Below are positions 9,411 through 57,294 of a DNA stretch of 64,000 nucleotides, in pieces. Under the pieces are notes generated by a model. The model searched no databases, was not told the DNA's origin, and was given only the letters and a program-made list of their open reading frames with translations. Both the position numbers and the translations under genes were made by a program. The first letter of the stretch is position 1. Each line of letters starts with the position of its first letter. The DNA is taken from contig NZ_CP163439.1 of the NCBI RefSeq assembly GCF_041052385.1, forward strand, positions 3,089,001 to 3,153,000, written 5' to 3'. This stretch comes from Streptomyces sp. R28 (lineage in GTDB: Bacteria > Actinomycetota > Actinomycetes > Streptomycetales > Streptomycetaceae).

Positions 9411-10457
9411 ATGGCGGAACAGAGCGTGCGGTGGGGGATCCTGGCGACCGGCGGGATCGCGGCCGCGTTCACGGCGGACCTGGTCGACCTGCCGGACGCG
9501 GAGGTCGTGGCCGTGGCCTCGCGGAGCCAGGCCTCGGCGGACGCGTTCGCCGAGCGCTTCGGGATACCGCGGGCGTACGGCGACTGGGACGCGCTCGCCC
9601 AGGACGGCGACATCGATGTCGTGTACGTCGCCACCCCGCACTCCGCGCACCGCGCCGCCACCGGGCTGTGCCTGGAGGCGGGGCACAACGTGCTGTGCGA
9701 GAAGGCGTTCACGCTGAACGCGCGTGAGGCCGAGGAACTGGTCGCGCTGGCGAAGGCGCGCGGGAGCTTCCTGATGGAAGCGATGTGGATGTACTGCAAC
9801 CCCCTGATCCGGCGACTGAAAACGATGGTGGACGACGGCGCGGTCGGTGAAGTGCGCCATGTCCAGGCCGACTTCGGGCTGGCCGGACCCTTCCCGCCCG
9901 CGCACCGGCTGCGCGACCCGGCCCAGGGCGGGGGCGCCCTGCTGGACCTCGGCGTCTACCCGGTCTCCTTCGCCCAGCTGCTGCTGGGGGAGCCGTCGGA
10001 CGTCACGGCGCGCGCGACGCTGTCCGCGGAGGGCGTCGATCTGCAGACGGGAGCCCTGCTCTCCTGGGACAGCGGCGCCCTCGGCTCCCTGCACTGCTCC
10101 ATCGTCGGCGGTACGGCGACCTCCGCGTCGGTCACCGGCTCGGGCGGCCGTATCGACGTGCCGAGCGGCTTCTTCTTCCCGGACCGCTTCGTGCTGCACC
10201 GCGACGGCCGTGACCCTCAGGAGTTCACGGCCGACCCGGCGGACGGACCCCGGAGCAGCCTGCGGCACGAGGCCGCCGAGGTGATGCGGGCCCTGCGCGC
10301 CGGCGAGACCCAGTCGCCGCTGGTCCCGCTCGACGGCACGCTCGCCGTGATGCGGACGCTCGACGCGGTCCGCGACCGCATCGGCGTCCGCTACCCGGGC
10401 GAGGCGCCCGCCGAGGATTCCGGCGAGGACCTCGCGCCCGAGCTCACACCTGCGTGA
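9411..10457 (+). CDS. Gfo/Idh/MocA family NAD(P)-dependent oxidoreductase
   Basis: A 348-residue sugar or polyol dehydrogenase-like protein. The N-terminal Rossmann fold starts with WGILATGGIAAAF, and the conserved cofactor/catalytic lysine lies in LCEKAFTLN (the family EKP variant). The C-terminal substrate domain is typical (GGALLDLGVYPV). Substrate unknown. Its 3' end overlaps the convergent phoD gene by 14 nt, and a short inverted repeat (10442-10447 / 10454-10459) lies across the overlap. Confidence 0.9.
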   Translation: MAEQSVRWGILATGGIAAAFTADLVDLPDAEVVAVASRSQASADAFAERFGIPRAYGDWDALAQDGDIDVVYVATPHSAHRAATGLCLEAGHNVLCEKAFTLNAREAEELVALAKARGSFLMEAMWMYCNPLIRRLKTMVDDGAVGEVRHVQADFGLAGPFPPAHRLRDPAQGGGALLDLGVYPVSFAQLLLGEPSDVTARATLSAEGVDLQTGALLSWDSGALGSLHCSIVGGTATSASVTGSGGRIDVPSGFFFPDRFVLHRDGRDPQEFTADPADGPRSSLRHEAAEVMRALRAGETQSPLVPLDGTLAVMRTLDAVRDRIGVRYPGEAPAEDSGEDLAPELTPA

Positions 10458-42102: not shown

Positions 42103-43449
42103 ATGTGCCCTATGGAGGGGGCAGCCGCGGGAGCGGCCCAGCTGAAGGCGCTGCGACACCGGCGCGGCCTGTCGCTCACCGACGTCGCCCGTGCGCTCAT
42201 CGCCCTGGCCGGGGAAATGCATCAGCCGCCACTGCCGTCCGTGGCGAGCGTGCAGCGGTCCGTTGCCCGCTGGGAGTCCCCGAAGAGACCGACGCTGCCC
42301 GACGAGCGGTACCAGTTGCTCCTCGCCCACCTCTACGCGCGCACGCCCGCCGGCGAACTCTCCCTCGGCGCGGGCTCCGACTTCGGCGAGTACCTGGATG
42401 CCCTCGGCCTGCTCGGGGAGAGTGAGCGGCGAACGGCGGAGCTGCGCAGCCTCGTTCTCCGCACAGCCACCGACGCGGGCGGCGGCCTGCTCGTTCTTCT
42501 CTCTCCAACTGTCCAGGCCACACTCACCGCAGCTCTTGAGGACCCGAGGCGGACCGAGGCGGATGCCATAGCCGGACTGGCCTCCGTGGTGGCGAACGTC
42601 AACGCGGAGGTCGGCAGCCTGCCCATGGTGCGGCTGCAACTGCTGCTCGCCCCGGCCGTCGAGACCTGCAGGCGCCTGCTCGCCGGTCCCGTCCCTGATC
42701 CGCTCGTTCCACAGCTCCGGGAAGTCGCGGTAACGGCGGCGACGCTGTCCGGCCGTCTGGCGTTCGAGACCCGCGACGACACCGCTTCTCGTGCCCTGTA
42801 CGCGGAGGCGACATGCGAGGCGGAACAACTGGCGCAGCCCTGGCGGAAGGCCAGCGTCCACATGAGCCACGCCCTGGTCACCCTGTACTCGAGGCAGGGC
42901 CTCGACGAGGCGCGGTACCTGGTCGACCAAGCCGTACGCGCGGCCCGCTCCGGAGAGAGCTCGCTCGTGCGGGCGCGGGCGCACGCGCTGCAAGCGGAGA
43001 TCGCCGCGCGGTCCGGGCAGGAGCGGCAGACACAGGCCGCGCTCGGGCTGGCCTGGTACGACATCGAGGCCGACCACACCGACGACCCGGCGCCCACGTC
43101 GTTCTCTCCCGGTCACCTCCGCGGCTTCGAGGGCGTATGCGAGCTGTACGTCGGCGACTCCTGCGCAGCGCACGACCGCTTCGCCCGGTCGGCGGAGGTG
43201 CTGTCGGCGCCGAGGGAACAGGTGCAGCGGGCCATCGTCACCACTGACCAGGCGCTCGCCCGGATCCGGCTCGGGGAGCCGCGCGCGGCGGCCGATCTGC
43301 TGCACAAGTGCGTGGCCGCAGCAGCGACGACCGGTGGCCGAGTGCCGGCGCTGCGGCTGCGGAAGGCGCGGCAGGAGTTGCGGCCCTGGCGGCGGGAGGA
43401 GTGGGTGGCCGACCTCGACGACCACCTGATGGACGTCCTCGGCTCCTGA
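42103..43449 (+). CDS. XRE-type helix-turn-helix regulator with helical-repeat tail
   Basis: A 448-residue protein. The N-terminal HTH (AQLKALRHRRGLSLTDVARAL... SVQRSVARWESPKRPTLPDERY) is XRE-like. The remaining 340 residues are Ala/Leu-rich helices resembling TPR-type repeats, with QPWRKASVHMSHALVTLYSRQG as one clear unit. This layout is common in Streptomyces regulators. The start may be ATG 42103 or 42112. It is probably cotranscribed with the SLOG-like gene. Confidence 0.8.
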   Translation: MCPMEGAAAGAAQLKALRHRRGLSLTDVARALIALAGEMHQPPLPSVASVQRSVARWESPKRPTLPDERYQLLLAHLYARTPAGELSLGAGSDFGEYLDALGLLGESERRTAELRSLVLRTATDAGGGLLVLLSPTVQATLTAALEDPRRTEADAIAGLASVVANVNAEVGSLPMVRLQLLLAPAVETCRRLLAGPVPDPLVPQLREVAVTAATLSGRLAFETRDDTASRALYAEATCEAEQLAQPWRKASVHMSHALVTLYSRQGLDEARYLVDQAVRAARSGESSLVRARAHALQAEIAARSGQERQTQAALGLAWYDIEADHTDDPAPTSFSPGHLRGFEGVCELYVGDSCAAHDRFARSAEVLSAPREQVQRAIVTTDQALARIRLGEPRAAADLLHKCVAAAATTGGRVPALRLRKARQELRPWRREEWVADLDDHLMDVLGS

Positions 43450-43497: not shown

Positions 43498-45162
43498 CTA
43501 CGCCGCTGCGTTCTCCACGTTGCCGTGAACGGCGTTGCAGCCGCCGTCAGGGATACCTATGACTTCGACCGTGACGCCCCACTGCCCCAGGGTCTTGACG
43601 GTCTGCGCAAGCGTGACCTGGGAGAAGGCGAAGAGTGTCTCCGGGGTCAGTTCCGTCCCGCGCTTCAGGTGGATGGCGAAGACAAGCCGTCGGGGAATGA
43701 AGTCATCAGGGAGGCAACGACTGCCGCCACTCTTCTCGCGGACGACCCTGACGAACTCCGCGCGAACGGCAGCCGAGTTCTGCAACATCTGGACAGTCAC
43801 GAGTCCCTGGTTGAACAGGTGGCTGAGCGGGCCCGATCGGCCGTGAGCCGGCTTGACCAGGACCAGGGTGCCGTCGGGGGTCAAGTGGTCGCTGACCTCC
43901 AGGACATCGCGACGCTTGAGGGGGTTCTTCACGTAGGCGCGGTCGAGATTGATGAAGCCTCGCCCCTCTGAAGATTCTGACAGCTTCTGGTTGTACGTTT
44001 CCTCGTCGACGCCGAGTGGCCACGAGGGCAGGGTCATCGAGGGCGCCGGACTGATCACCCGAGAAACGATGTCCTTGACCTCGGACCGATAGATCGCGCC
44101 GATCTCGTACCAGGACTGGTCGAGCAGGCAGAACCGCCGCTCGCCGAGGCTCAGTTGCGCCTCGATCCAACGCAGTGCCTTGGTGGCGACCAGGTCGACC
44201 GCGTGGTGCTGGAAGAGGCAGACCCTGCCCTCGCGCAGTGCCTCCAAGCGGAGGCCGGGCTTACGCGTACGCACGCAGTCGAGGAGATGGACAACGGTCA
44301 GATCGTCCACCCGCCGCGTCCCGCCAGTGCCAATCTTCACCCCGAAGGCCACGGCCTCCTCATAGGCACTGATGTAGTCCGCCGGTACAGCAATCGTGAT
44401 CGCGCCGTCGTCGAAGCGTCCGAGGGCGTCATCCAAAGCGGAGTCGAGGGCTACGCGGGTCTTCGTATCCCGGACCGGTACAAGATGTTCGACGAACTCG
44501 AGTCCCTGCTGAGGCTCGAGCTCGCGGCAGATGCGGCCGATCTCTCGAATGTCTGCGATCAGGTCTCCGGGTTCGACACCGAGCCGAAGCCGCAGACCGC
44601 TGCCACCCTCCGCGCTGGTTGCCTTTCCCCGGCCGTACCGGGAGTACGTCAGCTCAGTACCGTCAAGGTAGCCGCCGATGCGAGACACGAGCTGGGCATA
44701 TTCCCGGACGCCAAGCGAGGGGACGGGGATGCCTCCGGGCACGATCGCGATGTCGGTCCTGGACTGTCCGAGGGTGTAGGCGACAAGTCCGCGGACCTGC
44801 TGGGGGTCGACCTGCCGGATGGCAAAGGAGAGGCCGAATCGGGGGTCCTTGATGTCCTCGGGTAGCAGGCGGAAGCCCTCATCGTGGGCGATGGCGTACA
44901 CCTCGCCGTCGACGGCGAGGAGCAGGAGCGCGGCCGTCCGACGCTTGGGCTCCGTGACTCGGATGCCCGTACTGCGCGCCATCACCGCGCACCAGGTTGC
45001 CTCGCAGTCCTTTCCAGCCCTGAGGAAGACCGCGGGCACACCCAGCCAGGCACTGGCGTCGTGCAGCTGGGCCTCCCAGCGGTCAAGTCGATCTCCCTCA
45101 ATCGCCGTCCTCATCGCCTCCACTGTGGGAGTGACATCGATGAGGCGGTAGAGGGTCGCCAT
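43498..45162 (-). CDS. TIGR04141/DUF6119 sporadically distributed protein
   Basis: A 554-residue protein of the TIGR04141 (DUF6119) family, proteins with patchy distribution typical of mobile accessory DNA. The N-terminal part reads TLYRLIDVTP, then GVPAVFLRAGKDCEATWCAVM and AIAHDEGFRLLPEDIKDPRFGLSFAIRQVDP. The C-terminal half has FCLLDQSWYEIG, GRGFINLDRAYVKNP, DVLEVSDHLTPDGTLVLVKPAHG and LSHLFNQGLVTVQML, all characteristic of the family. No catalytic residues are known to me. Its place between an integrase and a restriction operon suggests a defence or anti-invader role; this is inference. Confidence 0.78.
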   Translation of the reverse strand: MATLYRLIDVTPTVEAMRTAIEGDRLDRWEAQLHDASAWLGVPAVFLRAGKDCEATWCAVMARSTGIRVTEPKRRTAALLLLAVDGEVYAIAHDEGFRLLPEDIKDPRFGLSFAIRQVDPQQVRGLVAYTLGQSRTDIAIVPGGIPVPSLGVREYAQLVSRIGGYLDGTELTYSRYGRGKATSAEGGSGLRLRLGVEPGDLIADIREIGRICRELEPQQGLEFVEHLVPVRDTKTRVALDSALDDALGRFDDGAITIAVPADYISAYEEAVAFGVKIGTGGTRRVDDLTVVHLLDCVRTRKPGLRLEALREGRVCLFQHHAVDLVATKALRWIEAQLSLGERRFCLLDQSWYEIGAIYRSEVKDIVSRVISPAPSMTLPSWPLGVDEETYNQKLSESSEGRGFINLDRAYVKNPLKRRDVLEVSDHLTPDGTLVLVKPAHGRSGPLSHLFNQGLVTVQMLQNSAAVRAEFVRVVREKSGGSRCLPDDFIPRRLVFAIHLKRGTELTPETLFAFSQVTLAQTVKTLGQWGVTVEVIGIPDGGCNAVHGNVENAAA

Positions 45163-45540: not shown

Positions 45541-45904
45541 TCTTCTCCTCCAGCTAGGCGATCTCGATCTCGCACCTCCCGACCTTCCATCTGGGCATGG
45601 ACATGACCACTCCACAGACAGCCGCTGCGACTTGGAGCAGGTTGGTTCAGGAGCGCTTGCAGGCCCGTAGCCCAGCCCCCTCTCGGGGGGTGCTGGCACG
45701 GCCTGAAGTGGGGAATCCGAAGGAGTCACCGGTCGACGCAGCGACTCCGCCGGTAAAGACGCTAGCGGCATACCTCAGCCCCCGCAAGACCCTTGTGTTC
45801 ATCCATGCCGCATAGCTCAAATGTACACAGAGGCGATGTGTACGATGACGTCGATGTTCACACGCACTTGCTGGAATGAGAGGCCTACAGATACGGTCAC
45901 CAAC
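45541..45904. other. Control region upstream of the restriction operon
   Basis: About 360 bp. A 72-codon plus-strand frame (45597-45815) exists but lacks a ribosome site and recognisable features, so I do not call it. The last 120 bp are less GC-rich and promoter-like, with TTGTGTTCATCC and an inverted repeat at 45823-45843. This is probably the promoter of the four-gene restriction operon. Confidence 0.45.
45823..45843. promoter_or_regulatory. Inverted repeat GTACAC-N9-GTGTAC, candidate operator
   Basis: Perfect 6-bp arms (45823-45828 and 45838-45843) with centre spacing suited to a dimeric HTH protein. It lies about 60-80 bp before the start of the HTH-methylase gene, which could bind it itself. 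ATGTGTACGATGA (45836-45848) matches 12 of 13 bases with 37888-37900 near the integrase. Confidence 0.45.
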
Positions 45905-47680
45905 ATGACCTCAGACCAGCACGACGAGCTGACAGCCGCTGAGATCGCGCGGCTGGCCGGTGTCGGCCGTGCTGCCGTCTCCAACTGGCGACGCCGCTAC
46001 CCGGGCTTCCCAAAGCGGGTCGGCGGCACCCCGCAACGTCCGACGTTCTCTCGGGAAGAGGTTGAGAAGTGGCTGAAGGCCACCGGCAAGAGCGACCAAC
46101 TGGCAACCGCCGGCCGCACGGAGACCGGGACTCAGCGCATCAGCGACCTGTCACAGTTCGTCGGCGGCGGCCCTAGTTACACGCGAGAGCCGGAGCACAG
46201 TCTTGCCGACCTCACACCTGGCCAGTTGCTGGCGAGGGTGATGACGTCCCTACTGCCGCAGTCAACGGCGGAGGCCACGCCAAACCACGCAGACGACACC
46301 GACGCGCACGATACGGACGTGTCTGTTGTGCTCGACCCTGCCTGCGCCGATGCGACGCTGTTGATGGCCGTCGCCGACAGGTTCGGCAGCGACGTCAAGC
46401 TCGTAGGACAGGAGATCGACGAGCTGGCTGCCGCGAAGGCGAAAGCCGCGCTACACCTGCGGAACGACACCCAGAGCGTTCAGTACGAGATCCACTCCGG
46501 CGATTCCTTGCTGAACAACCAGCTCAGCACCTACTTGGGCGCATCTGCAGCTGTCATCTGCGAGCCGCCCTTCGACCTGCCGCAGTGGCCAGCAGCCAAG
46601 CTGGCCGGCGATCAGCGTTGGAGGTTCGGCGTCCCCTCTCCCCGCGACCCCGAACTAGCCTGGGTACAGCACTGCTACGCACACCTGCGCCCGCACGGTG
46701 TGGCCGTGATCGCAGTGTCCCCACGCACCGGTATCCAGCCGTCCGGGCGGGACATCCGCGCGGCGTTGGTCCGCTCCGGTGCCCTGCGCAGCGTGATCGC
46801 GCTGCCGACGGGGATGGGCTCAACACCAGACACAAGCATCCACGTCTGGGTCTTGCGACGCCCCTACGGCACCCCCACCGCCGATACCGTAGACATGATC
46901 GACTTGTCGGGACTGAGTGATGCTGCCGATGTCCCAGATGGAGACGCCGCCTGGCGAGACATCGTCCGCGGCGACAGCCCGGCCCTCTCCCGCGCCGTGC
47001 CGTCTCAGGAACTCCTCGACGGAGACGTCAGCCTCCTGCCCTCCCGGTACGTCAGCGCACAAGTGGAGGCGACCCCCGACGACTTCGCTCGCGTCACCGG
47101 TCGACTGCAGGCCCTCTATAGGCACGTCGGACAGGGATTGCCGAACTTCGCCGCACCCGCCGCTCAGGTCCGCCACACTTACGTCTCCTTCACCGAACTG
47201 GAACGTACAGGAGCACTGAGAATCCGCTCACGCGAGACCACCCCGAGCGCTGGCGCCCTTCTCGTGCGCACGCTCGGTCGGCCGCCAGTCGTGGCAACTG
47301 GCACCGCTGAGGACGGGATCGGTGTGGCCCAGATCGTCGAGATCAACGCCGACCGGTTGGACCCGCACTTCGTCATGGCCTTTCTGCAGGCCGACGCTCA
47401 AGCTCTGCCAGTGGCCAACACCCTCGGTGCGCTCAACCGCGAAGATTTGCGCCGTTGCCGCATCCCCCGCCTACCTCTCGCCGAGCAGCGCCGCTACGGG
47501 GACGCGTTCCGCTACCTGCAACAACTGCAGGACACGCTCACGGCACTCGCGAAGGCGAGCTCGCATGTAATCGACCAAACCCTCCACGCACTGACCACGG
47601 GTGTTCTGGCACCGGGCTTCTCCGTGGCGCAGGCCACTGATGGTGCTGTTGCGACCGACAACGAGACGAGAGAGCTGTGA
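45905..47680 (+). CDS. HTH-fused N6-adenine methylase-like protein with altered catalytic motifs
   Basis: A 591-residue protein. The N-terminal HTH (about 8-57; LTAAEIARLAGVGRAAVSNWRRRYPGFP and FSREEVEKWLK) is followed by a methylase fold related to HsdM. Motif I is DPACAD (144-149) instead of DPACGTG, and motif IV is EPPF (220-223) instead of NPPF/Y, so adenine methylation is doubtful. The C-terminal 200 residues resemble a specificity-type region (LSPLAEQRR-like end, here LPLAEQRRYGDAF). ATG 45905 is used, but upstream in-frame ATGs to 45821 are possible. Its stop overlaps hsdM (GTGA). It may be a regulator or an accessory subunit of the restriction complex. Confidence 0.72.
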   Translation: MTSDQHDELTAAEIARLAGVGRAAVSNWRRRYPGFPKRVGGTPQRPTFSREEVEKWLKATGKSDQLATAGRTETGTQRISDLSQFVGGGPSYTREPEHSLADLTPGQLLARVMTSLLPQSTAEATPNHADDTDAHDTDVSVVLDPACADATLLMAVADRFGSDVKLVGQEIDELAAAKAKAALHLRNDTQSVQYEIHSGDSLLNNQLSTYLGASAAVICEPPFDLPQWPAAKLAGDQRWRFGVPSPRDPELAWVQHCYAHLRPHGVAVIAVSPRTGIQPSGRDIRAALVRSGALRSVIALPTGMGSTPDTSIHVWVLRRPYGTPTADTVDMIDLSGLSDAADVPDGDAAWRDIVRGDSPALSRAVPSQELLDGDVSLLPSRYVSAQVEATPDDFARVTGRLQALYRHVGQGLPNFAAPAAQVRHTYVSFTELERTGALRIRSRETTPSAGALLVRTLGRPPVVATGTAEDGIGVAQIVEINADRLDPHFVMAFLQADAQALPVANTLGALNREDLRRCRIPRLPLAEQRRYGDAFRYLQQLQDTLTALAKASSHVIDQTLHALTTGVLAPGFSVAQATDGAVATDNETREL

Positions 47681-49650
47681 CTTCAGGCCCCACACATTCC
47701 AAGATGGCGAACGACATCTGGTCGGTCGCCGACCTGCTGCGCGGCGATTACAAGCGGCACGAGTACGGACAGGTAATCCTACCGTTCACGCTGCTGCGCC
47801 GCCTCGACGCGGTGATGGCCCCGACGCGTCAGGCGGTGTGGGACCGCGATGCCTCCCTCAACATCCAGAACAAGACCCGCATGCTGGAGGTCGCAGCGAA
47901 GCTGCCCTTCTACAACACCTCCAAGCAGGACTTCTCAACCATCGCCGGCGATCCGCAGACTGTCGCGAAGAATCTGCGCGACTACATCAACGGCTTCTCC
48001 TCCAACGTCCAGAGAATCCTGGAACGCTTCGACCTGGACAACGAGATCACCCGGCTCGCGGGCGCGAAGCTCCTTTATGAGGTTGTTGGCAGGTTCGCCA
48101 AGATGCGCGACCTCGACAAGCTCACCAACCACGACATGGGCTACGTCTTCGAGCACCTGATCCGCAAATTCGCCGAGGACTCCAACGAGACCGCCGGTGA
48201 GCACTTCACCCCGCGCGAAGTCATCAAGTTGATGGTCAATCTGCTGATCGCCCCGGACGCGGACACCATCGCCGCCGAGGGCCAGGTCATCAACATCCTC
48301 GACCCGGCCTGCGGCACTGGTGGCATGCTCACTGCGGCCGAGGACCACATCAAGTCGATCAATCCGAATGCCGAGGTCTTCCTCTTCGGACAAGAAATCA
48401 ACGCCGAGTCCTGGGCGGTCTGCCAGTCGGACATGCTCATGCGCAACCAGCGCGGCCACATCCACTTCGGCAACTCTTTCAGCGACGACGGGAATCCGGA
48501 CCGGAAGTTCGACTACATGCTGGCTAACCCGCCATTCGGTGTGGAGTGGAAGAAGGTCAAGGACGCGGTAGAGGACGAGGCCAAGATCGGCCACGCCGGC
48601 CGCTTCGGCGCGGGGACGCCGCGTATCAACGACGGCTCGTTCCTCTTCCTGCAGCACATGATCTCCAAGATGGAGGCTGTTGAGGGCAAGGGATCCCGGC
48701 TGGCGATCGTCTTCAACGGTTCGCCGCTTTTCACCGGCGCCGCCGAGTCCGGCGAGTCGAAGATCCGCCAGTGGATCCTAGAAAACGACTGGCTGGAGGG
48801 AATCGTCGCCGTTCCGGACCAGCTTTTCTACAACACTGGTATTTCCACATACTTCTGGATCCTCACCAACCGCAAGACCGAGAAGCTGCGTGGCAAGGTG
48901 ATCCTGCTCGACGCCCGCGACCAGTGGCAAAAGTTGCGTAAGTCCCTGGGAGACAAGCGCAAGAAGATCACGGACGGACAGATCAAGCACATCACCGAGC
49001 TGTACGTCGACGCCATCAGGGTCGCGGAAAACCCCGGACACACGGACCACGCCAAGGTGAAGATCTTCAGCAACCGCGACTTCGGCTATCACCGCATCAC
49101 CGTCGAGCGCCCACTCAAACTCCACTTCGAGATCACAGAGGACACTCTCGCCGCACTCGAAAACTCGAAAGCCCTGGCCAAGTGGGACGGCCGCAAGGCA
49201 TTCACCGCAGCACTCAGGGAGCTGCTCGGCTCGGTCTGGTGGACGAAGCAGGAGGCCACCGACGCGATGCACGCGGCCGTCGCAGGAGCGGGGGCCTTGT
49301 GGCCAAGTGCGGCAGCTCTACAGAAGGGCGTGTGGGGTGCGGTCTCGGTATCCGACCCCGAGGGCGAGGTTCAGCAGGACAAGAAGGGCAACGTCCTACC
49401 TGACCCAGACTTGCGCGACTACGAGAACGTCCCGCTCGACGAGGATATCGATACCTATTTCACCCGCGAGGTCATCCCGCACGTCCCGGACGCCTGGATC
49501 GATTACGACAAGACCAAGGTCGGTTACGAGATCCCCTTCACACGGCACTTCTACGTGTACACCCCGCCGCGTCCGCTGGCGGAGATTGACGCAGAACTGC
49601 GCGAACTGGAGGCACAGATCCAGAAGCTTCTAGGGGAGGTGACGAAGTGA
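47677..49650 (+). CDS. hsdM: Type I restriction-modification methylase subunit HsdM
   Basis: A 657-residue N6-adenine methyltransferase subunit. The N-terminal helical HsdM domain (IWSVADLLRGDYKRHEYGQVILPFTLLRRLD) is followed by an intact catalytic core: motif I DPACGTGG at 209-216 and motif IV NPPF at 284-287. The C-terminal extension carries a long helical end (IDAELRELEAQIQKLLGEV) for contact with HsdS. It methylates the host recognition site with HsdS. The GTG start overlaps the previous stop, and the stop overlaps hsdS (GTGA). Confidence 0.95.
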   Translation: MTSGPTHSKMANDIWSVADLLRGDYKRHEYGQVILPFTLLRRLDAVMAPTRQAVWDRDASLNIQNKTRMLEVAAKLPFYNTSKQDFSTIAGDPQTVAKNLRDYINGFSSNVQRILERFDLDNEITRLAGAKLLYEVVGRFAKMRDLDKLTNHDMGYVFEHLIRKFAEDSNETAGEHFTPREVIKLMVNLLIAPDADTIAAEGQVINILDPACGTGGMLTAAEDHIKSINPNAEVFLFGQEINAESWAVCQSDMLMRNQRGHIHFGNSFSDDGNPDRKFDYMLANPPFGVEWKKVKDAVEDEAKIGHAGRFGAGTPRINDGSFLFLQHMISKMEAVEGKGSRLAIVFNGSPLFTGAAESGESKIRQWILENDWLEGIVAVPDQLFYNTGISTYFWILTNRKTEKLRGKVILLDARDQWQKLRKSLGDKRKKITDGQIKHITELYVDAIRVAENPGHTDHAKVKIFSNRDFGYHRITVERPLKLHFEITEDTLAALENSKALAKWDGRKAFTAALRELLGSVWWTKQEATDAMHAAVAGAGALWPSAAALQKGVWGAVSVSDPEGEVQQDKKGNVLPDPDLRDYENVPLDEDIDTYFTREVIPHVPDAWIDYDKTKVGYEIPFTRHFYVYTPPRPLAEIDAELRELEAQIQKLLGEVTK

Positions 49651-50858
49651 GTCACAAGCGCATTAAATTTCAGTGTCGAGTAATTGATCAGAGAGCCGGG
49701 AAAGATCAGCCTCCACTGATGGCGGTTTCGATCCATCACGGAGTGGTGCGACGCGACTCACTAACCGATGATCTCCCTCGCGCAGAAGACCTAAGTAACT
49801 ACAAGCTATGCGAAACAGGCGACATTGTCCTAAACCGCATGCGCGCGTTTCAAGGCGCAATCGGGATCAGCTCTCAACGCGGAATTGTTAGCCCTGACTA
49901 TCTGGTCCTCCGGCCAGGGCCAGATGTCGATGCTGGCTACCTACACCACTTGTTCCGCTCCGCATGGTTCGTTGGAGAGATGGTGTCTCGCCTCCGAGGG
50001 ATCGGCAACACTGAAAACGGATCAGTGCGCACGCCGCGTATCAACTCTGAAGATCTCCTGGACATCGAAGTTCCCTTCCCCTCTCTGAACGAGCAGCGCC
50101 GCATCGCCGATTTCCTCGACGTTGAGACCACCAGGATCGATCAACTGATCAGCGATCAGTCACGCGTAATCTCGCTCCTAGATGAGCGGGTCAGTAGTCA
50201 AATTCTCGGAATCATTGGAGGAAGCAGGCTCGCAATTACAGGCGGAACTAATATTTCTCCGATCCGGAGGTTGCTGGTTAAGCTCAACCGGGCAACCATG
50301 GCCACCGACGAGGTCATCACCGCATTCCGAGACGGACAGGTTACGACTCGCAACGCGAGGCGCAATGAAGGCTACACACTCGCAACTAGCACTGAACCCC
50401 AGGGCCAGGGTGTGAAAGTTGGCGACATCGTCATCCATGGACTAGACGGTTTCGCCGGAGCTATCGGAGATTCCGAAGCTGTCGGAAACTGTAGCCCCGT
50501 CTATCATGTGTGCACCCCACTTGACGGTGGAAACCCTGCTTTCTACGGTCGTCTTCTTCGCGTATTGGCCGTCGAAGGATATCTTGGATTGTTCGCCTCG
50601 AGCACGAGGGAACGTGCAGTGGACTTCCGCAGTTGGGATCTCTTTGGGAATATTCCAGTACCCCGAGTGGATATCGCCGTACAGCATGAGATCGGGGAAT
50701 CGGTAGTTAGCATTCGCCCACTCCGCGAAAGAGTCACCCGCTTCAACGAACGCTTGGCCGAGCGCCGTCAGGCCCTGATCACAGCAGCCGTCACGGGCCA
50801 AATCGACGTGACGACCGCACGCCCCCAGCTTCCGTCCGCAGGAGGTGTCTCCTCATGA
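49647..50858 (+). CDS. hsdS: Type I restriction specificity subunit HsdS
   Basis: A 403-residue specificity subunit with two target-recognition domains, each followed by a conserved helix. The central dimerisation helix contains PSLNEQRRIADFLDVETTRIDQLI, and the terminal one SIRPLRERVTRFNERLAERRQALI. The sequence is clearly less GC-rich than its neighbours, with codons such as ATA, AAT and CTA that are rare elsewhere here, typical of exchanged HsdS genes. It overlaps hsdM (GTGA) and hsdR (ATGA). Confidence 0.93.
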   Translation: MSHKRIKFQCRVIDQRAGKDQPPLMAVSIHHGVVRRDSLTDDLPRAEDLSNYKLCETGDIVLNRMRAFQGAIGISSQRGIVSPDYLVLRPGPDVDAGYLHHLFRSAWFVGEMVSRLRGIGNTENGSVRTPRINSEDLLDIEVPFPSLNEQRRIADFLDVETTRIDQLISDQSRVISLLDERVSSQILGIIGGSRLAITGGTNISPIRRLLVKLNRATMATDEVITAFRDGQVTTRNARRNEGYTLATSTEPQGQGVKVGDIVIHGLDGFAGAIGDSEAVGNCSPVYHVCTPLDGGNPAFYGRLLRVLAVEGYLGLFASSTRERAVDFRSWDLFGNIPVPRVDIAVQHEIGESVVSIRPLRERVTRFNERLAERRQALITAAVTGQIDVTTARPQLPSAGGVSS

Positions 50859-53800
50859 GCGCGGGATCCCACACCGAGACTGCCTTCGAGAACCGGGTCG
50901 AGGCTGAGCTACTCGCACGCGGCTGGTGCCAGGCGCGGGGAACGTTCGATGCCGAACTCGCCATCGATGCAGACGAGATGTACCGGTTCATCGACGCAAC
51001 GCAGGCTGAGAACTGGAACCGGCTCGTCGGCTTCTACGGGGACGACCGGACCGCCGCAAAAGGGCAGTTCACCCAACGCGTGGCCGCCGAGATCGACGCG
51101 CGGGGAGTCCTGGATGTGCTGCGCCAGGGCGTACGCGATCGTGGCGTACAGATCGACCTTGCGTACTTCCGACCCGGTCACACCCTGGCTGCCGACGCCC
51201 TGGCCGAGTACGACGCGAATATCCTTACCGTGGTACGGCAGTTGCACTACAGCGTGCGGCGTCCGAGCCATTCGCTGGACCTGGCGTTCTTCGTGAACGG
51301 ACTGCCCGTGGCGAGCGCCGAGCTGAAGAACCCCAACACCGGCCAGAACGCCGACCATGCCATCGCGCAGTACCGCCGCCGGGACCCGAACGAGGTGTTC
51401 TTCGCCAAGAGGACACTGGTCCACTTCGCGGTCGACCCGGACCGGGCCTTCATCACCACGCGGCTACGGGGCGCAGAGACTCAGTTCCTGCCATTCAACA
51501 TCGGCTCAAACGGGCCGGGGGTGTCAGGCGGGGCGGGGAACCCGCCGGCGCCGGACGGAGGCGTCGCTGTCGCCTACCTCTGGGAGCAGATCTGGCAGCG
51601 TGACAACTGGCTGGAGATCCTGCACCGCTTCCTGCACATCCAGTTGCCGGACAAGAAGGGTGTGCGGGCAAACCCGAACACCTCTCCGCGCATCTTCCCC
51701 CGCTACCACCAGTGGGACGCGGTCCAAAAGATGATCGCCCACGCCCGGGATCACGGTGCTGGACACAACTACCTCATCCAGCACTCGGCGGGCTCGGGCA
51801 AGTCGAACACGATCGCCTGGCTCGCGCACCGTCTGTCGAACCTTTACGACGCCGCCAACCAGCCCGTGTTCCACAAGATCATCGTGATCACAGATCGGGT
51901 CGTACTCGACCGCCAACTGCAGCGGACTATCTTCCAGTTCGACCACACTCCCGGTGTCGTCAAGAAGATCGATCAAGACTCCACTCAGTTGGCCTCGGCC
52001 CTCGACGACGCCACGTCGAAGATCGTCATCAGCACACTGCAGATGTACCCATATGTGCTGGGGAAGATCGCCGACATGGGCCTTCAGGGCAAGCGCTACG
52101 CGGTGGTCATCGACGAGGCGCATTCCTCGCAGGGTGGGGAGTCTGCGATCAAGCTCAAGAAGGCCCTCGGCGAGAACGCGGCCCCCCGCGAGGAGGACGA
52201 GGACGAGGTCGAGTACATGACGCGGGTGCGCGGCAGGCAACCGAACCTGTCGTACTTCGCGTTCACCGCCACGCCGAAGTCCCCAACGCTGAAGCTGTTC
52301 GGCGCCTTCGATCCGGACCGGGTTCATCCACGCACCGGCGAGAAGGGCATGTACGTGCCCTTCCATATCTACTCGATGCGGCAAGCGATCGAGGAGGGCT
52401 TCATCCTCGATGTCCTCGCGAACTACATCACCTACGACACCAAGTGGCGATTGCGGAACGAGGCGGTACAGAAGGCAGAGTCGGACGTCGCCAATCCAGA
52501 GGTGGACTCGTCCAAGGCAAAGCGCGAGCTGGTCCGCTACGCCGAGCAGCACCCCAAGTCCCTGGAGCAAAAGGCGAAGCTGATCGTCGACGACTTCCGG
52601 GAGAACATCGCCGGGCGGCTCGGCGGCCGAGCCAAGGCCATGGTCGTCACGCCCGACCGGCCACACGCGCTAGGCCTCTACCAGGCGATCCGCTCCTACG
52701 TTGAGCTGCGCGGGTACACAGACTGCGGCACGCTCGTCGCGTTCTCGGGGCCGCTCAAAGACGAATCCACCGGGTTGGAGTTCACCGAGGCTCAGCTCAA
52801 TGGCTTCCCCGAAGCCCGGCTACCGGAGCGCTTCGCCTATACCAAGGCGGACGATCCGCAGGCCGTCGCTCGCAACCAGGAGGAGTACCGGCTTCTTGTG
52901 GTCGCGGAGAAGTACCAGACGGGGTTCGATCAGCCCCTGCTGTGCGCAATGTACGTTGACAAGCCGCTCCCTGGTGTCGCGGCGGTGCAGACGCTGTCCC
53001 GGCTCAACCGCATCCACCCTCTCAAGGCCCAGGAGGACGTACACGTCCTAGACTTCGTCAACACGGCGACCGAGATAAAGGAGGCCTTCGCGGACTGGTT
53101 CGAGGCCACCATCAGTGAGCCGACCGACCCGAACCTGCTGTACACCAAGCAGCGCGAGGTGATGACGTACGAGCTGCTGGTCGCCTCCGAAATGGAGGCG
53201 TTCATCCGAGTTCTGGCTGTAGCCGGACCCGACCGGATGACGGACGCAGCCGAACGCAGGCTCCATGCCCAGCTGCACGAGTACCTCAAGCCCGCGCTCG
53301 ATCGCTTCGCAGATCTGGCGACCGACGAGCAGGAGGGCTTCCGCACCGCGCTGCGAGACTATGTACGCGCCTATAGCCTCATCGCGCAAATCGTCGACTG
53401 GGGCGACCGCGACCTGGAGCGCCTGTACCAGTACGGCCGCATCCTGCTGCTCCGGCTCCCGGGCCGACCGTCAACGTCGGTCGACATAGGCGACGCTGAC
53501 CTGAGCCACTTCCGTCTCGAATACACCGGGCGTCACAACGTCTCGCTGTCCCCCGTAGGGGACCGCGACGTACGCGGCCACGCAGCGGACGGAGGGGGTT
53601 ACCGAGAGCCTGAAGTCAAGCCGCTGTCGGAGGTGATCGAGGAGCTGAACGAGCGGTTCGGACTGGGCCTGGGCACATCCGACCAGATCCTTGTCTACCA
53701 GCAGGTCGTTGGGCTGGTAGAGGACACGGGAATGCAGCAGATTGCGCTCATGAACGACGAGAACCGATTCGGCCAGGTTGCCGACGACCGGCTCGACGAC

Positions 53801-53998
53801 ATCGTCGCGGAGAATGCGGAGCGCAACACCGACTTCATGAAGCTGTATTTCGACAACAACGAATTCCGGAAAGCAATCAAGGAGGCGGCCCGAAAGCGCG
53901 CGTACCGGATCATCACCGAGCCCGCGCGGGACGAGGCGCTCGCGCGGCTGCGAGCCGAAATGCGTCGAGAAACCGGCGATCAAGCGATACAGCGATGA
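50855..53998 (+). CDS. hsdR: Type I restriction endonuclease/translocase subunit HsdR
   Basis: A 1047-residue motor nuclease. The PD-(D/E)xK nuclease core is D142 ... E156-L-K158 (LDLAFFVNG and SAELKNP). The SF2 helicase motor has Walker A SAGSGKSN (311-318), DEAH at 420-423, and motif III FTATP. Motif VI-like YQTGFDQPLL and LSRLNRIHP follow, then a C-terminal helical region. Full length and intact, so restriction should be functional with HsdM and HsdS. The start is an ATGA overlap with hsdS. Confidence 0.95.
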   Translation: MSAGSHTETAFENRVEAELLARGWCQARGTFDAELAIDADEMYRFIDATQAENWNRLVGFYGDDRTAAKGQFTQRVAAEIDARGVLDVLRQGVRDRGVQIDLAYFRPGHTLAADALAEYDANILTVVRQLHYSVRRPSHSLDLAFFVNGLPVASAELKNPNTGQNADHAIAQYRRRDPNEVFFAKRTLVHFAVDPDRAFITTRLRGAETQFLPFNIGSNGPGVSGGAGNPPAPDGGVAVAYLWEQIWQRDNWLEILHRFLHIQLPDKKGVRANPNTSPRIFPRYHQWDAVQKMIAHARDHGAGHNYLIQHSAGSGKSNTIAWLAHRLSNLYDAANQPVFHKIIVITDRVVLDRQLQRTIFQFDHTPGVVKKIDQDSTQLASALDDATSKIVISTLQMYPYVLGKIADMGLQGKRYAVVIDEAHSSQGGESAIKLKKALGENAAPREEDEDEVEYMTRVRGRQPNLSYFAFTATPKSPTLKLFGAFDPDRVHPRTGEKGMYVPFHIYSMRQAIEEGFILDVLANYITYDTKWRLRNEAVQKAESDVANPEVDSSKAKRELVRYAEQHPKSLEQKAKLIVDDFRENIAGRLGGRAKAMVVTPDRPHALGLYQAIRSYVELRGYTDCGTLVAFSGPLKDESTGLEFTEAQLNGFPEARLPERFAYTKADDPQAVARNQEEYRLLVVAEKYQTGFDQPLLCAMYVDKPLPGVAAVQTLSRLNRIHPLKAQEDVHVLDFVNTATEIKEAFADWFEATISEPTDPNLLYTKQREVMTYELLVASEMEAFIRVLAVAGPDRMTDAAERRLHAQLHEYLKPALDRFADLATDEQEGFRTALRDYVRAYSLIAQIVDWGDRDLERLYQYGRILLLRLPGRPSTSVDIGDADLSHFRLEYTGRHNVSLSPVGDRDVRGHAADGGGYREPEVKPLSEVIEELNERFGLGLGTSDQILVYQQVVGLVEDTGMQQIALMNDENRFGQVADDRLDDIVAENAERNTDFMKLYFDNNEFRKAIKEAARKRAYRIITEPARDEALARLRAEMRRETGDQAIQR

Positions 53999-54068: not shown

Positions 54069-55655
54069 GTGAAGGACGAGACGGCACAGTCCCCTGGGAG
54101 ACGGCTCCTCGCGGGGCGCTACCGCGTGGACGGTGTGCTCGGACGCGGTGGCATGAGCGAGGTCTTCCACGGCTATGACGAGCGTCTGGACCGAAGCATC
54201 GCGATCAAACTCCTGCGGCCGCCATCAGGGTCGGTTCCGGACACGCCGGACAGTCCGGAGGCCGCGGATCTCCTCGACCAGATCGAGCGAGACCGCAAGC
54301 GTTTCCTGCGGGAGATCCGCACCACCGCCCAGCTGGAACACCCGGGCATCCCCGCGGTCTACGACACGGGCGTCGAAACCGGCGACGATGGCAGCACACA
54401 GTTGTGGCTGGTCATGCAGCTGCTGCGCGGGTCGACCCTGGAAACCCTCCTCAACCGCAGGGACTACACCGCTGCGCCACCAAGCGTGGCATGGGCCGCG
54501 TCCATCGCCGCGCAAATCGCCGCAGTCCTGGTCGGCGTGCACCAAGTCGACATCGTCCACCGCGACATCAAGCCAGCCAACATGATTGTCATCGACGGCG
54601 GTCTGGTGAAGGTCCTCGACTTCGGCATCGCGATCCTTCGCGGCGCAGGTGCCCTGCCGCGGTTGACTCAGGTCGACAAGACCGTCGGCACTCCGCCGTA
54701 CATGTCGCCCGAGCAATGCCTCGGCCAGCCGGTGACCGCCGCGTCAGACATCTACTCCCTCGGCTGCCTCCTGTGCGAACTGCTCACGGGGGACGTGCCG
54801 TTCTTCGCGACTTCCGCCATGCCGCTGCGCGCCCACCACCTGAAGACACCCGCCCCATCGATACTGATGCGCCGCGCCGATATTCCGACGGCACTCGACA
54901 GCCTCGTGACGTCAATGCTGGCAAAGGACCCGGATAAGCGGCCTCAGGCAGAGGCCGTATATGAGGCGCTCCTTCCTCACGCAGGTGCATCGACCGGAGC
55001 ACCTACAACTGGCGACGACAGTCGCGACCCGACCCGCCCGTTCCGTCGGCCTCTCCTGGCCGCGACCAGGCCACGGGAGCAGGACACACACCAGGCCCGG
55101 TTGACGGACGCCGAAGCGGCAGCCCTGCAGGCGAATGTGCAGGCGCTTCTGGACAGCGACCAACCGTCTCAAGCGATCCGCCTCCTCGAAGCGGGCGTCA
55201 CCCGCGCTGCACATGACCCCTACCTGGAGCTGCGCCTGCGCCACTTCCTGGCCGCCGCACAGTTCTACGCCGGCGAATACACCCACGCCGCCAGCCTCTT
55301 CGACGTCGTCGGCCGCGACTACCGCAAACACCTGCAGCCGAGCGACCCCATCGTCCTAGACTGCGCCTACCACGCAGGCCACGCGTACGCCGAGATCGGG
55401 AAACCGGACATGGCGCTTCCGCAGCTGCGCTTTTTCGTGCAGAACGCCCACCCCTCGGCTGACGACGACACAGCGGACCAGATCCGCGAATCTCGCTTCG
55501 TCATCGCCCAGATGCTGGCGGCGTCCGGCTACCTGGGGGAGTCGCTCGTGGAACTCGAAGCCGTCCGTATCCTCCTGGTCGACGCTTATGGAGCCGACTC
55601 GATTCAGGTACGGAACCTTGACAAGCAGATCGCCCGGCTCAGATCCGCCATCTGA
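54069..55655 (+). CDS. Ser/Thr protein kinase with C-terminal helical repeats
   Basis: A 528-residue soluble kinase. The Hanks-type catalytic domain (about 16-295) is complete: Gly loop GRGGMSEV (25-32), K47 (AIKLL), E82, HRDIKPAN (164-171), DFG (184-186) and SPEQ. A linker rich in Thr/Arg follows, then about 190 residues of TPR-like helices (AIRLLEAGVTRAAHDPYLELRLRHFLAAAQFYAGEYTHAASLF). There is no transmembrane helix or PASTA domain. It lies 70 nt after hsdR on the same strand, so it may be cotranscribed with the restriction operon; its targets are unknown. Confidence 0.88.
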   Translation: MKDETAQSPGRRLLAGRYRVDGVLGRGGMSEVFHGYDERLDRSIAIKLLRPPSGSVPDTPDSPEAADLLDQIERDRKRFLREIRTTAQLEHPGIPAVYDTGVETGDDGSTQLWLVMQLLRGSTLETLLNRRDYTAAPPSVAWAASIAAQIAAVLVGVHQVDIVHRDIKPANMIVIDGGLVKVLDFGIAILRGAGALPRLTQVDKTVGTPPYMSPEQCLGQPVTAASDIYSLGCLLCELLTGDVPFFATSAMPLRAHHLKTPAPSILMRRADIPTALDSLVTSMLAKDPDKRPQAEAVYEALLPHAGASTGAPTTGDDSRDPTRPFRRPLLAATRPREQDTHQARLTDAEAAALQANVQALLDSDQPSQAIRLLEAGVTRAAHDPYLELRLRHFLAAAQFYAGEYTHAASLFDVVGRDYRKHLQPSDPIVLDCAYHAGHAYAEIGKPDMALPQLRFFVQNAHPSADDDTADQIRESRFVIAQMLAASGYLGESLVELEAVRILLVDAYGADSIQVRNLDKQIARLRSAI

Positions 55656-55701: not shown

Positions 55702-55752
55702 CGTAGGACGGTGACGTGCTGTCGATGCGGCCGACGGTCGCAGCGTCCTACG
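55702..55752. terminator. Inverted repeat at convergent kinase/CorA-like ends
   Basis: CGTAGGACG (55702-55710) and its exact complement (55744-55752) with a 33-nt loop, overlapping the stop of the minus-strand gene. It is a possible bidirectional terminator; the long loop makes this uncertain. Confidence 0.35.
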
Positions 55753-57031
55753 CCTTTCTGCCCCCGCCCCGCAGGGATGACAGGACCAGGCGCCCGTACC
55801 GTGTGGTGAGGGCTGCGGCGGTGGCGGCGACCGACAGGGCGAGCGCGATGAGCAGGTGCGCCGTGGAGTTGTCATCGAGAACCTGCAGGATGCTGAGGGC
55901 GGTTCCGAGTGGCAGGCCGAGAATGGTGAGTACGCCCAAGGCGCCGCTGATCTGCTGGCTCTCCTGGGTCTGTACGAGCCTGCTGTAGTCGGCTGCTTCA
56001 GCCAGGATTTCGGCGAAACGTGCGGGCAGCCGGTGTTGGTTCTGGAAGGCGAGCAGCAGATCGTTCGCCGCTCCGTGTGCGGTGAGGTGCTGGCGCCAGT
56101 AGGTGCTTCGGAAAACGGCGATGTTCCGCTCCAGCGTGGCGACGCGGCGGGCGAGCCGTGAGGAGTTGAACACTTCGGAGAGTTCGTCGGTGAGCTCGTC
56201 GATGTGATCGCGCTGGAGCGAGCCGAGGAGCAGGGCGTCGAGATAGACGGTACGCGAGTGCAGCGCGCCGAACTCGAAGAAGTCGCCGGCCCCGGTGTCG
56301 GGCCGGTGGCCGAGGAAGGCGGCCCCTTGACGTAGCACCAGGGCGCTCCAGTCCGCAGAGATCCTTACGGCGTCCTTGAGCTGTTCGGCGGCGGTCTCCG
56401 GGGGCAAGGGGAAGTCCTCCGGTGTGGAGCGCGAGGCCAGCTGCCACAGCCAGTGGTCCGCGGTGGCGGGCAGCGCCGCTTCGCCGCCGGTGCGGAGGGC
56501 AGGGGTGTGCCGCTCCGTGGGGGTTATGAAGGCGATGGTGTAGGGCCTCGCTATGGCGAACGGCTGGTCGGGGTCGCGGACGTCGGCGATGCCGGCGAGG
56601 AGCCCGGCCGGGTCGAAGGGCCCGGTGAGGGGATCGTCGGCGGAGTTCGGCCGCCGCCCGGCCAGGGCCCGCAGTATGGGCAACAGCGGTCTTTCCACGC
56701 TCAAGTGCAGGACGACAAGGGCGTGTTCGGGATTGCGGGCGGTGGCCGCCCGGAGAAGTTCCATGCCCAGCAGGTGCAGCCCGTCGTTCTTGACGTCCAG
56801 CGGCAGGTACCAGCGACAGGGCCGTCCCGGCGCCCCGTACAGCGCACGGGCGGAGGCGGGGGCGAAGTAGGTGGACCGGGTCTGAGCGTCGGTGCGGCGG
56901 CTGCCCAGCTCGAACGGGAAGGGACCTTCGGGCCAGTCGGGGAGGCGTTTGAGCCGCACAGGCAGGACGACGGTCAGCTCCTGGCGTGCCCCTGTGACCT
57001 CCTCAAGCAGCGGAACCCCGTAGGTGGTCAT
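55748..57031 (-). CDS. CorA-like protein with two C-terminal membrane helices
   Basis: A 427-residue protein, last gene of the NACHT operon. The N-terminal two thirds are soluble and of mixed fold (PVRLKRLPDWPEGPFPFELG, LVVLHLSVERPLLPILRALA). A long helical section follows (NIAVFRSTYWRQHLTAHGAAND). The end has two hydrophobic helices (GALGVLTILGLPLGTALSIL and HLLIALALSVAATAAALTT), the topology of CorA channels, but the GMN ion-selectivity motif is missing. It may be a membrane effector. It starts at an ATGA overlap with the preceding small gene. Confidence 0.72.
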   Translation of the reverse strand: MTTYGVPLLEEVTGARQELTVVLPVRLKRLPDWPEGPFPFELGSRRTDAQTRSTYFAPASARALYGAPGRPCRWYLPLDVKNDGLHLLGMELLRAATARNPEHALVVLHLSVERPLLPILRALAGRRPNSADDPLTGPFDPAGLLAGIADVRDPDQPFAIARPYTIAFITPTERHTPALRTGGEAALPATADHWLWQLASRSTPEDFPLPPETAAEQLKDAVRISADWSALVLRQGAAFLGHRPDTGAGDFFEFGALHSRTVYLDALLLGSLQRDHIDELTDELSEVFNSSRLARRVATLERNIAVFRSTYWRQHLTAHGAANDLLLAFQNQHRLPARFAEILAEAADYSRLVQTQESQQISGALGVLTILGLPLGTALSILQVLDDNSTAHLLIALALSVAATAAALTTRYGRLVLSSLRGGGRKA

Positions 57032-57294
57032 CGGTAGTACTCGGCTGGGTCGGGCTGGTTGAGGCGGATGACGAACTCCGCCCGGTCGGGGCTTTCGGCG
57101 TTGATGTGGAAGCGGACGTGTTCGCCTGTGCGGATGGTGCGGAAGCCCTCGGTCACGATCTGGCGGTAGTCGAAGCTGTAGTACCGCTCGTCCTCGTCGT
57201 CCTGGACGACGTAGGTGCCGAGCGCACCGCTCAGTCCTCCGCCGCTCGGACGCCTGTCGACAATGGTTCCGTGGCGCGGTCCGCCACCGCTCAT
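57028..57294 (-). CDS. Small beta-rich protein, cold-shock/OB-like
   Basis: An 88-residue protein. A Gly-rich N-terminus (HGTIVDRRPSGGGLSG) is followed by alternating strands, TYVVQDDEDERYYSFDYRQI and FRTIRTGEHVRFHINA. Spacing and strand order resemble a cold-shock/OB fold, suggesting nucleic-acid or ligand binding, but the classical RNP motifs are not obvious. Both ends overlap neighbours by 4 nt (ATGA), so its dose is tied to the NACHT protein. Confidence 0.6.
   Translation of the reverse strand: MSGGGPRHGTIVDRRPSGGGLSGALGTYVVQDDEDERYYSFDYRQIVTEGFRTIRTGEHVRFHINAESPDRAEFVIRLNQPDPAEYYR

Follow-up and report, generated by a model that had tools for sequence, protein, structure and literature searches.

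Locus and gene content

The window analyzed here is a stretch of 64,000 nucleotides (positions 3,089,001-3,153,000 of the one-contig genome, 10.76 Mb, of Streptomyces sp. R28). Its subject is an operon in which a type I restriction-modification (R-M) gene set is headed by a 591-aa protein, here named HTHM, with a helix-turn-helix (HTH) domain and a degenerate methylase domain. Here we present the features of HTHM, its relatives, its gene neighborhood and its candidate operator, together with the reading that it probably acts as a regulator of its own operon.

The genes of the operon, in coordinates of the window, are:

45905..47680, + strand, HTHM, HTH plus degenerate HsdM-like methylase plus recognition-domain-like region, 591 aa
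47677..49650, + strand, hsdM, motifs intact (DPACGTGGM/NPPF), HsdM_N and N6_Mtase by Pfam
49647..50858, + strand, hsdS, PF01420, recognition domains highly variable
50855..53998, + strand, hsdR, HSDR_N, SWI2_SNF2 and T1R_D3-like
54069..55655, + strand, Ser/Thr protein kinase with C-terminal extension, PF00069 (5.4e-40), fifth gene of the conserved operon

The reading frame of HTHM is open from 45821 to 47680; the ATG at 45905 yields the 591 residues, and relatives align from the methionine encoded there. At the HTHM/hsdM junction, GTGA combines the hsdM start codon (GTG at 47677) with the HTHM stop codon (47678-47680), and 4-bp overlaps also occur at the hsdM/hsdS and hsdS/hsdR junctions. An earlier note, made from the sequence alone, had described an HTH protein with an HsdM-like fold, carrying DPACAD and EPPF and coupled by GTGA to an hsdM-hsdS-hsdR set, which is borne out by reading frames, Pfam matches and motifs. 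The interval it gave, 45905-50858, holds real genes but ends at hsdS, whereas the operon, HTHM-hsdM-hsdS-hsdR-kinase, reaches 55655; the kinase gene at 54069-55655 had been overlooked. At E ≤ 1e-5 the genome contains one match to HTHM, namely HTHM itself.

Domains, motifs and predicted structure of HTHM

The following features were assigned within HTHM:

45926..46090, + strand, HTH domain, residues 8-62, recognition helix VGRAAVSNWRRR (HTH_17 E 1.2e-4, below gathering; mad1 model; helices in the predicted structure)
46187..47056, + strand, HsdM-like domain, residues 95-384 (PF02384 E 9.1e-23; 3lkd_A Z 29.6)
46334..46360, + strand, degenerate motif I DPACADATL, residues 144-152
46562..46573, + strand, altered motif IV EPPF, residues 220-223 (Glu in 23 of 24 loci of the clade described below)
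47165..47602, + strand, recognition-domain-like region and C-terminal helix, residues 421-566 (weak Specificity_I match at 456-547, E 9.3e-6)

Among methylase motifs I to X, motifs I and IV are those needed for S-adenosylmethionine binding and adenine methylation. Motif I of HTHM reads DPACADATLL and motif IV CEPPFD, next to DPACGTGGM and NPPF in the neighboring HsdM; where an active HsdM has GxG in motif I and (N/D)PP(F/Y) in motif IV, HTHM has ADA and EPPF. The N6_Mtase fold of HsdM is present by both profile and structure (PF02384 and 3lkd_A, values as listed). N6_Mtase is the sole Pfam family matched at E ≤ 0.001; no C5-methyltransferase domain was found, and the HsdM N-terminal domain PF12161, matched by the neighboring HsdM at 3.8e-23, has no match in HTHM at this threshold, its N-terminus being the HTH. 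Regarding the PADLOC models, the highest-scoring was the type I methylase PDLC03037 (5.6e-59), mad1 matched residues 8-64 (E 4.3e-7), and a specificity-subunit model matched residues 456-547. Residues 401-591 alone gave no Pfam match.

An AlphaFold2 model built from 22 aligned sequences had a mean pLDDT of 73.6 and a pTM of 0.51, the methylase domain being best predicted. Foldseek ranked the PacII M1M2S complex first, followed mostly by HsdM proteins. In VIA-align, 3lkd_A matched 260 residues within HTHM 95-384 (rmsd 2.4), whereas TaqI, BseCI and CamA-type methylases matched over a longer part, to about residue 545, but loosely and with a large whole-chain rmsd. Matches past residue 390 have an rmsd near 20 and do no more than suggest how the recognition region folds. 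A profile from 22 HTHM sequences found eight PDB sequences (including PacII M, 3khk and EcoR124II M), mostly over the methylase domain. From these structure and profile matches, the predicted plan of HTHM is HTH, HsdM core, recognition-like region and C-terminal helix.

Relatives and gene order

A scan of 84,980 species genomes, which finds close relatives only, yielded 24 HTHM loci, the nearest in Streptomyces diastatochromogenes (88%). Relatives at E ≤ 1e-20 were found in 10 of 396 genomes of a phylum sample and in 105 of 150 genomes of a genus sample (Streptomyces); at E ≤ 1e-52 they were found in 11 of 391 genomes of an order sample and 9 of 394 of a class sample. The loci read cover a minority of the matches in the 150 Streptomyces genomes. 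The tree and alignment comprise 68 HTHM proteins, hand-chosen and not random, with a midpoint root for drawing only; a neighboring gene was tallied when its product matched one of the window's proteins at E ≤ 1e-8.

Excluded from the 68 proteins and from the count of 24 clade loci were the window copy (L001), a near-copy of L005 (L007), a locus with masked N-terminus (L014), the partial loci L020, L022, L128 and L136, and L069, L070, L118, L121 and L125-L127, judged the same contigs as L002, L012, L008, L014 and L016-L018. Also excluded were L091-L096 (fetched for dyad checks), L116 (a copy of L135), L131 and L134 (near contig ends), and the short pieces L026-L054 and L100-L117. L025 and L068 are the same gene and are both counted in the 68.

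Three groups are distinguished in the tree. The first, the EPPF clade (24 rows, branch support 100/100), includes hosts from Streptomyces, Nonomuraea, Acrocarpospora, Actinomadura, Sphaerisporangium, Frankia, Pseudonocardia and a member of the Geodermatophilaceae. Here the expectation that EPPF-type proteins always precede hsdMSR holds: hsdM is the next recognized gene in 24/24, hsdS is found in 24 and hsdR in 23, and the kinase follows hsdR in 21, the contigs of L006, L122 and L132 ending 5.3-6.2 kb downstream, before any kinase. In L123 an insertion of about 1.4 kb (about 10450-12017) separates HTHM from hsdM; next to HTHM a short match to the N-terminal part of hsdM remains.

The second group (21 rows, support 100/92) contains 17 HPP proteins and four NPPY/F proteins. 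Motif I is mostly complete in the 17 HPP proteins, all of which have a same-strand kinase within 4 kb, and no hsd genes were found in the 3.6-14.5 kb fetched downstream of them. An example is L078 (6209-10640), where an HPPF-type HTHM and a kinase are grouped with one small unassigned gene and hsd genes are absent. Many more such HTHM-kinase loci are probably present among the Streptomyces matches. Regarding the four NPPY/F rows, L075 has hsdMSR, L085 has hsdM, hsdR and kinase, L086 a divergent kinase and L087 a kinase.

The third group (D/E; 23 rows, support 100/96) comprises 16 DPP and seven EP(P/S) proteins: five with hsdMSR and kinase, four with kinase only (two being the same gene), one with a divergent kinase, and 13 without hsdMSR or kinase, among them L084, which has a distant hsdM on the opposite strand. 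Overall, a kinase lies near 51 of the 68 proteins.

A search of the 150 Streptomyces genomes with the window's HsdM gave 41 places in 37 genomes. HTHM stands upstream in 27 of the 29 matches with at least 58% identity (exceptions G424 and G419:C2) but in none of the nine fetched (of 12) below that value, which places HTHM, as judged from sequence, with one HsdM lineage. Among the 27 upstream genes, 18 are NPPY/F, six EPP, two HPP and one DPP. Because 18 of 27 keep NPPY/F and HsdM proteins have Asn, the EPPF form is probably a derived branch of an active ancestor; the tree, being unrooted, does not prove the direction. A phage origin is not supported: in a scan of viral contigs, which likewise finds close relatives only, three stretches matched a pattern and none encodes a relative. 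Six plasmid records match, all below 60% identity; the one read lists no hsd genes within 9 kb, in a gene table that is incomplete by its own description.

Loss of catalytic residues and conservation

Across the 24 clade loci the catalytic Asn of motif IV is replaced by Glu in 23 and by Ile in one (IPPG, L019). The GxG of motif I is intact in five (three Frankia loci, L019 and L132), reduced to one Gly in eight and without Gly in 11; its first Gly is present in all 44 family members outside the clade. Other parts persist: D, A and C of DPAC in 24/24 and its P in 23/24, the WVQH stretch, and the motif X helix (LTPGQLLARVM), although its TP is not conserved (P in 10/24). The adjoining HsdM keeps DPACGTGGM and NPPF in all 21 loci examined. 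That HTHM is dead as a methylase is supported by inference from these motifs. A pseudogene or frameshift was rejected on account of the clade-wide conservation, and chance or sequencing error was ruled out as the source of EPPF, Glu or Ile occupying the position in 24 distinct loci.

Mean pairwise identities over 18 loci were 68% for the HTH, 62% for the methylase domain and 64% for the recognition region of HTHM, 79% for HsdM, 77% for HsdR and 67% for the kinase (17 loci), and 22% for each HsdS recognition domain. In the other HTHM groups the recognition region is 60-71% identical and the methylase domain 64-70%; in a DPPA/V subset the recognition region is partly deleted. Because the recognition region of HTHM stands at 64% against 22% for those of HsdS, the target of HTHM appears to be fixed while R-M specificity changes. 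For the same reason, the proposal that HTHM senses unmodified DNA is not supported in its simple form: the high variability of HsdS is not mirrored in the recognition region of HTHM.

Putative promoter and candidate operator

The following features lie upstream of HTHM:

45822..45829, + strand, extra operator half-site TGTACACA, which with the next half-site forms the palindrome 45823-45843
45837..45862, + strand, candidate operator dyad TGTGTACGATGACGTCGATGTTCACA (TGTGWAC-N12-GTWCACA), the sole place in the 10.76-Mb genome with at most one mismatch
45868..45897, + strand, putative promoter TTGCTG-N18-TACGGT, -10 ending 7 nt before the ATG
43498..45162, - strand, DUF6119/TIGR04141 gene, transcribed away from the HTHM promoter region and present upstream of HTHM in 12 of 24 clade loci

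The dyad ends 5 bp upstream of the TTGCTG -35 box. The HTHM transcript is probably leaderless: in 16 of 19 loci the distance from the end of the best-scoring promoter pair to the start is 4-9 nt (a count with no shuffle control). A generic scan for sigma-70 promoters and terminators gave one promoter-like and one terminator-like site, none at the operon start. The palindrome at 45823-45843, to which the earlier note had pointed, exists; among the 19 aligned promoters it is common only to the nearest relative, L002, and the more widely shared element is the overlapping dyad at 45837-45862.

Half-sites (TGTGWACA/TGTWCACA) with at most one mismatch number 54 and occur in all 19 clade promoters (near-copy L007 included), against 3.5 expected from 200 single-base shuffles (largest count 9). 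Exact half-sites number 24, in 16 of 19 (0.15 expected), and 52 half-sites were found upstream of 27 of 36 other family members (6.6 expected). The dyad with at most one mismatch is present in 10 of 24 clade promoters; of the 14 without it, 13 keep one to three exact half-sites, singly or in other arrangements, and L011 has an altered half-site. In a scan of spacers from 0 to 40 the peak was at 12, with 10/24 in the clade and 8/17 in the HPPF branch (5/14 without L097-L099, fetched for the dyad); group D/E showed no dyad at this spacer. In the HPPF branch, which has the kinase but, over the 3.6-14.5 kb fetched downstream, no hsd genes, the dyad occurs at the same 12-bp spacing; the link between dyad and HTHM is therefore independent of hsd genes.

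In the 150 Streptomyces genomes the exact dyad occurs at 20 places in 17 genomes and the reversed control pattern at two. Sixteen of the 20 lie within 1.7 kb of an HTHM match, one lies beside an HPPF-type HTHM gene with only a partial match (L091), and three lie elsewhere (L092-L094); the neighborhood of HTHM matches makes up less than 0.1% of the sequence by rough estimate. The HTHM-linked exact dyads, the window's own apart, appear to belong to the HPPF branch (those read do). Its promoters may be related by descent, and the 17 exact places are not 17 independent events. In G427, four of six dyads with at most one mismatch are at its two HTHM genes, two of them inside the HPPF coding region (control, one). 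Dyads within HPPF-type coding sequences were observed in L080 (10883-10908 and 10955-10980), L076 (4198-4223) and L090 (3410-3435); these intragenic dyads map to the linker between the HTH and methylase domains.

The dyad also follows the type of recognition helix: it is present with at most one mismatch in 20 of 44 VGRA loci (16/40 without L091 and L097-L099, the four fetched for the dyad) and in none of the VSRA (0/3), VTRA (0/23) or VERA (0/1) loci. An altered half-site, TGTGAGC, is found in 2/3 Ser-helix (VSRA) clade loci and 0/21 Gly loci (Fisher p 0.011, post hoc). The idea that HTHM delays HsdR found no support: a scan of the window at up to two mismatches gave one dyad, before the whole operon, and none before hsdR (0.12 expected; 12 of 100 shuffles have one).

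Interpretation

The explanation that we consider probable is that HTHM is a catalytically incompetent methylase serving as transcriptional autoregulator of its own operon. This reading is favored because the motif IV Asn is lost clade-wide and because the candidate operator at its own promoter is tied to the gene family. The earlier suggestion of a dead methylase turned DNA-binding regulator thus stands as an inference on these two grounds, while the retention of motifs II and III tells against it. HTHM would descend from an HTH-methylase-recognition-domain protein heading an actinobacterial lineage of type I R-M operons. Within the clade of the window, Glu would have replaced the catalytic Asn and motif I would have decayed, methylation being left to the separate, intact HsdM. 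A dimer would read both half-sites of TGTGWAC-N12-GTWCACA through its HTH domains, directly upstream of its own -35 box; a spacing of 19 bp between half-sites would fit a methylase-type body. This methylase/recognition body probably clamps the flanking DNA, so that the enzyme would have been given up and the clamp kept. HTHM would thereby set the transcription of all five genes, most likely by negative autoregulation, with R-M levels held low and released upon infection or stress. The negative sign is the likelier one by analogy with M.Ecl18kI and RptR. The kinase would be the obvious input to HTHM.

Several observations weigh against this reading. The HTH is weak by Pfam, reaching the HTH_17 value given above with a 75-aa piece alone. 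Motif II (GQE/GQD) is retained in 23/24 and motif III (GDS) in 24/24 clade loci, and because of these conserved residues HTHM may still bind the cofactor, with some activity. Fourteen of the 24 clade promoters (L003, L008-L012, L016-L018, L021, L119, L120, L123 and L124) have no dyad with at most one mismatch, and G483, the genome with clade member L012, has none at all. The reversed control pattern also has one place in the window's own genome, so that the window dyad is telling by position and not by count, its number alone being no better than the control. The VTRA branch, with 0/23 dyads, has 16 exact half-sites in 12/23 loci, from which it appears that its operator geometry, if any, differs. 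The half-site resembles those of Rex and CRP, though at another spacing, and another protein could bind there. Finally, a site upstream of -35 is as compatible with activation as with repression.

It is unlikely, in our judgment, that HTHM is instead a non-catalytic structural subunit aiding DNA binding in a mixed HTHM-HsdM-HsdS trimer. The model for such a subunit is METTL14 (EPPL) beside METTL3. The HsdM-like fold, the strict operon linkage and a motif IV Glu kept in 23/24 rather than drifting would suit it, as would the leading Foldseek match, PacII M1M2S, a type I enzyme whose two M subunits differ (PMC9613975). Such a subunit would, however, be expected neither to lack an HsdM_N match nor to bring its own recognition-domain-like region, and the HTHM sequence does not track the variable HsdS. 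No hsd genes were found in the stretches fetched for the HPPF branch, the operator would be left unexplained, and L019, with IPPG, retains the dyad.

Still less probable is a DNA methylase that remains active with unusual motifs, perhaps on a site or base of its own. Upstream of 30 sampled hsdM genes there are 19 HTHM genes, 16 of them with NPPY/F, and relatives heading this hsdM lineage often have a complete motif I as well; the retained motifs II and III and the conserved recognition region point the same way; within the clade, however, Asn is lost in 24/24, the GxG is broken in 19/24 and an intact HsdM adjoins. In PacII, NPPF/NPPY is reported as the catalytic motif (PMC9613975).

We give as little weight to the reading in which the dyad serves a different regulator, either the divergent DUF6119 protein or one like Rex or CRP, and HTHM has another task, for example sensing phage DNA and signaling to the kinase. 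This would accommodate the Rex-like half-site, the DUF6119 gene diverging from the same intergenic region in 12/24 loci, a kinase linkage at least as strong as that of the operator, and the promoters without a near-perfect dyad. Against it, 17 of the 20 exact dyads adjoin HTHM-family genes, DUF6119 is upstream in 0/17 HPPF loci, eight of which carry the dyad, the spacer of 12 is unlike Rex and CRP sites, and dyad presence tracks the recognition helix type of HTHM.

The DUF6119/TIGR04141 gene (function unassigned) is also found by some HTHM loci without hsd genes (L059, L062, L063 and L065) and is possibly a further part of the HTHM defense neighborhood; for the terms used, nothing on topic was found about it in open-access literature. 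An NsdA-family TPR regulator (42103-43449) and a weakly CorA-like protein (55748-57508) border the region, with no operon link shown.

HTHM as autoregulator may be part of something wider, and we offer only tentatively the view that HTHM and the kinase form a portable alarm-and-switch module of actinobacterial immunity placed by different effectors. Its pocket, in which catalysis would be lost and motifs II and III are kept, or its phosphorylation by the kinase, might sense infection or cofactor state and release the operator. The effectors would be type I R-M in the window's clade, in L068 a helicase of DISARM type along with a type IIG-like methylase, and the hsd-free kinase unit of the 17 Streptomyces loci. 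In L068 (4360-15302) the genes after HTHM and kinase encode a DrmD-like helicase (6.2e-87) and a large protein of type IIG/DrmMI-like character (1.9e-293, IIG model), and the HTHM-kinase pair appears to head a different, DISARM-type defense system; L062 has a GajB-like helicase (5.9e-34) and a DrmA-like protein (1.3e-201) nearby. As these neighbors show, the HTHM family sits among several kinds of defense genes.

A methylase fold that lacks the catalytic Asn in several branches, keeps its HTH and has a 26-bp candidate operator makes it possible to test, in Streptomyces, how type I R-M and other defense operons are silenced and switched on. The kinase partner suggests a phosphorylation input to restriction, and some actinomycete genes annotated as 'N-6 DNA methylase' may encode regulators and not methylases.

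Comparison with known systems

The closest functional parallel is M.SsoII/M.Ecl18kI (type II, cytosine-5). In M.Ecl18kI the N-terminal HTH region binds to an inverted repeat within the enzyme's own promoter, and contacts to the flanking DNA come from the methylase part, which regulation also requires; the regulation persists without methylation activity (PMC3695355). HTHM likewise has an N-terminal HTH (a weak match) followed by a methylase domain, an inverted repeat at its own promoter that is tied to the family (dyad in 10/24 clade promoters), and R-M genes under it. It differs in its N6-type HsdM fold, type I operon and other operator, in the clade-wide loss of catalytic residues beside an intact HsdM, and in an extra recognition-like region and a kinase partner; its regulation is a prediction. 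Membership of the M.SsoII family by descent was rejected, HTHM having N6_Mtase in place of a C5-methyltransferase domain.

With HsdM (PADLOC MTase_I PDLC03037; PF02384) HTHM shares the core fold and the N6_Mtase profile; it differs by the N-terminal HTH with no HsdM_N match, its own recognition-like region and the altered motifs I and IV. The non-canonical type I system PacII M1M2S also has two M-type proteins, but there M1 (NPPF) and M2 (NPPY) both methylate (PMC9613975), whereas HTHM lacks the Asn (EPPF). RptR, the repressor of a type I R-M defense island (PMC12255303), is comparable in being encoded first in its type I R-M operon and in autoregulation, which for HTHM is proposed; unlike HTHM, it is a 9-kDa single-domain protein with a TAGCTA site, described for Gammaproteobacteria.

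HTHM, HsdS and the kinase match PADLOC models of MADS (mad1, mad2, mad5 and mad6 being those involved). Identity with MADS or BREX-Pgl was rejected, since the scores fall far below the NCBIfam cut-offs: 52.7 of 720 bits for MADS2 (HsdM) and 18.5 of 400 for MADS5 (HsdS). The kinase was likewise rejected as MADS6 (128 of 460 bits) and as PglW (34 of 990 bits). For the terms used, no description of an HTH-methylase-kinase family heading type I R-M was found in open-access literature. HTH methylases that regulate their own R-M operon are known; HTHM would be one without catalytic residues and tied to a kinase.

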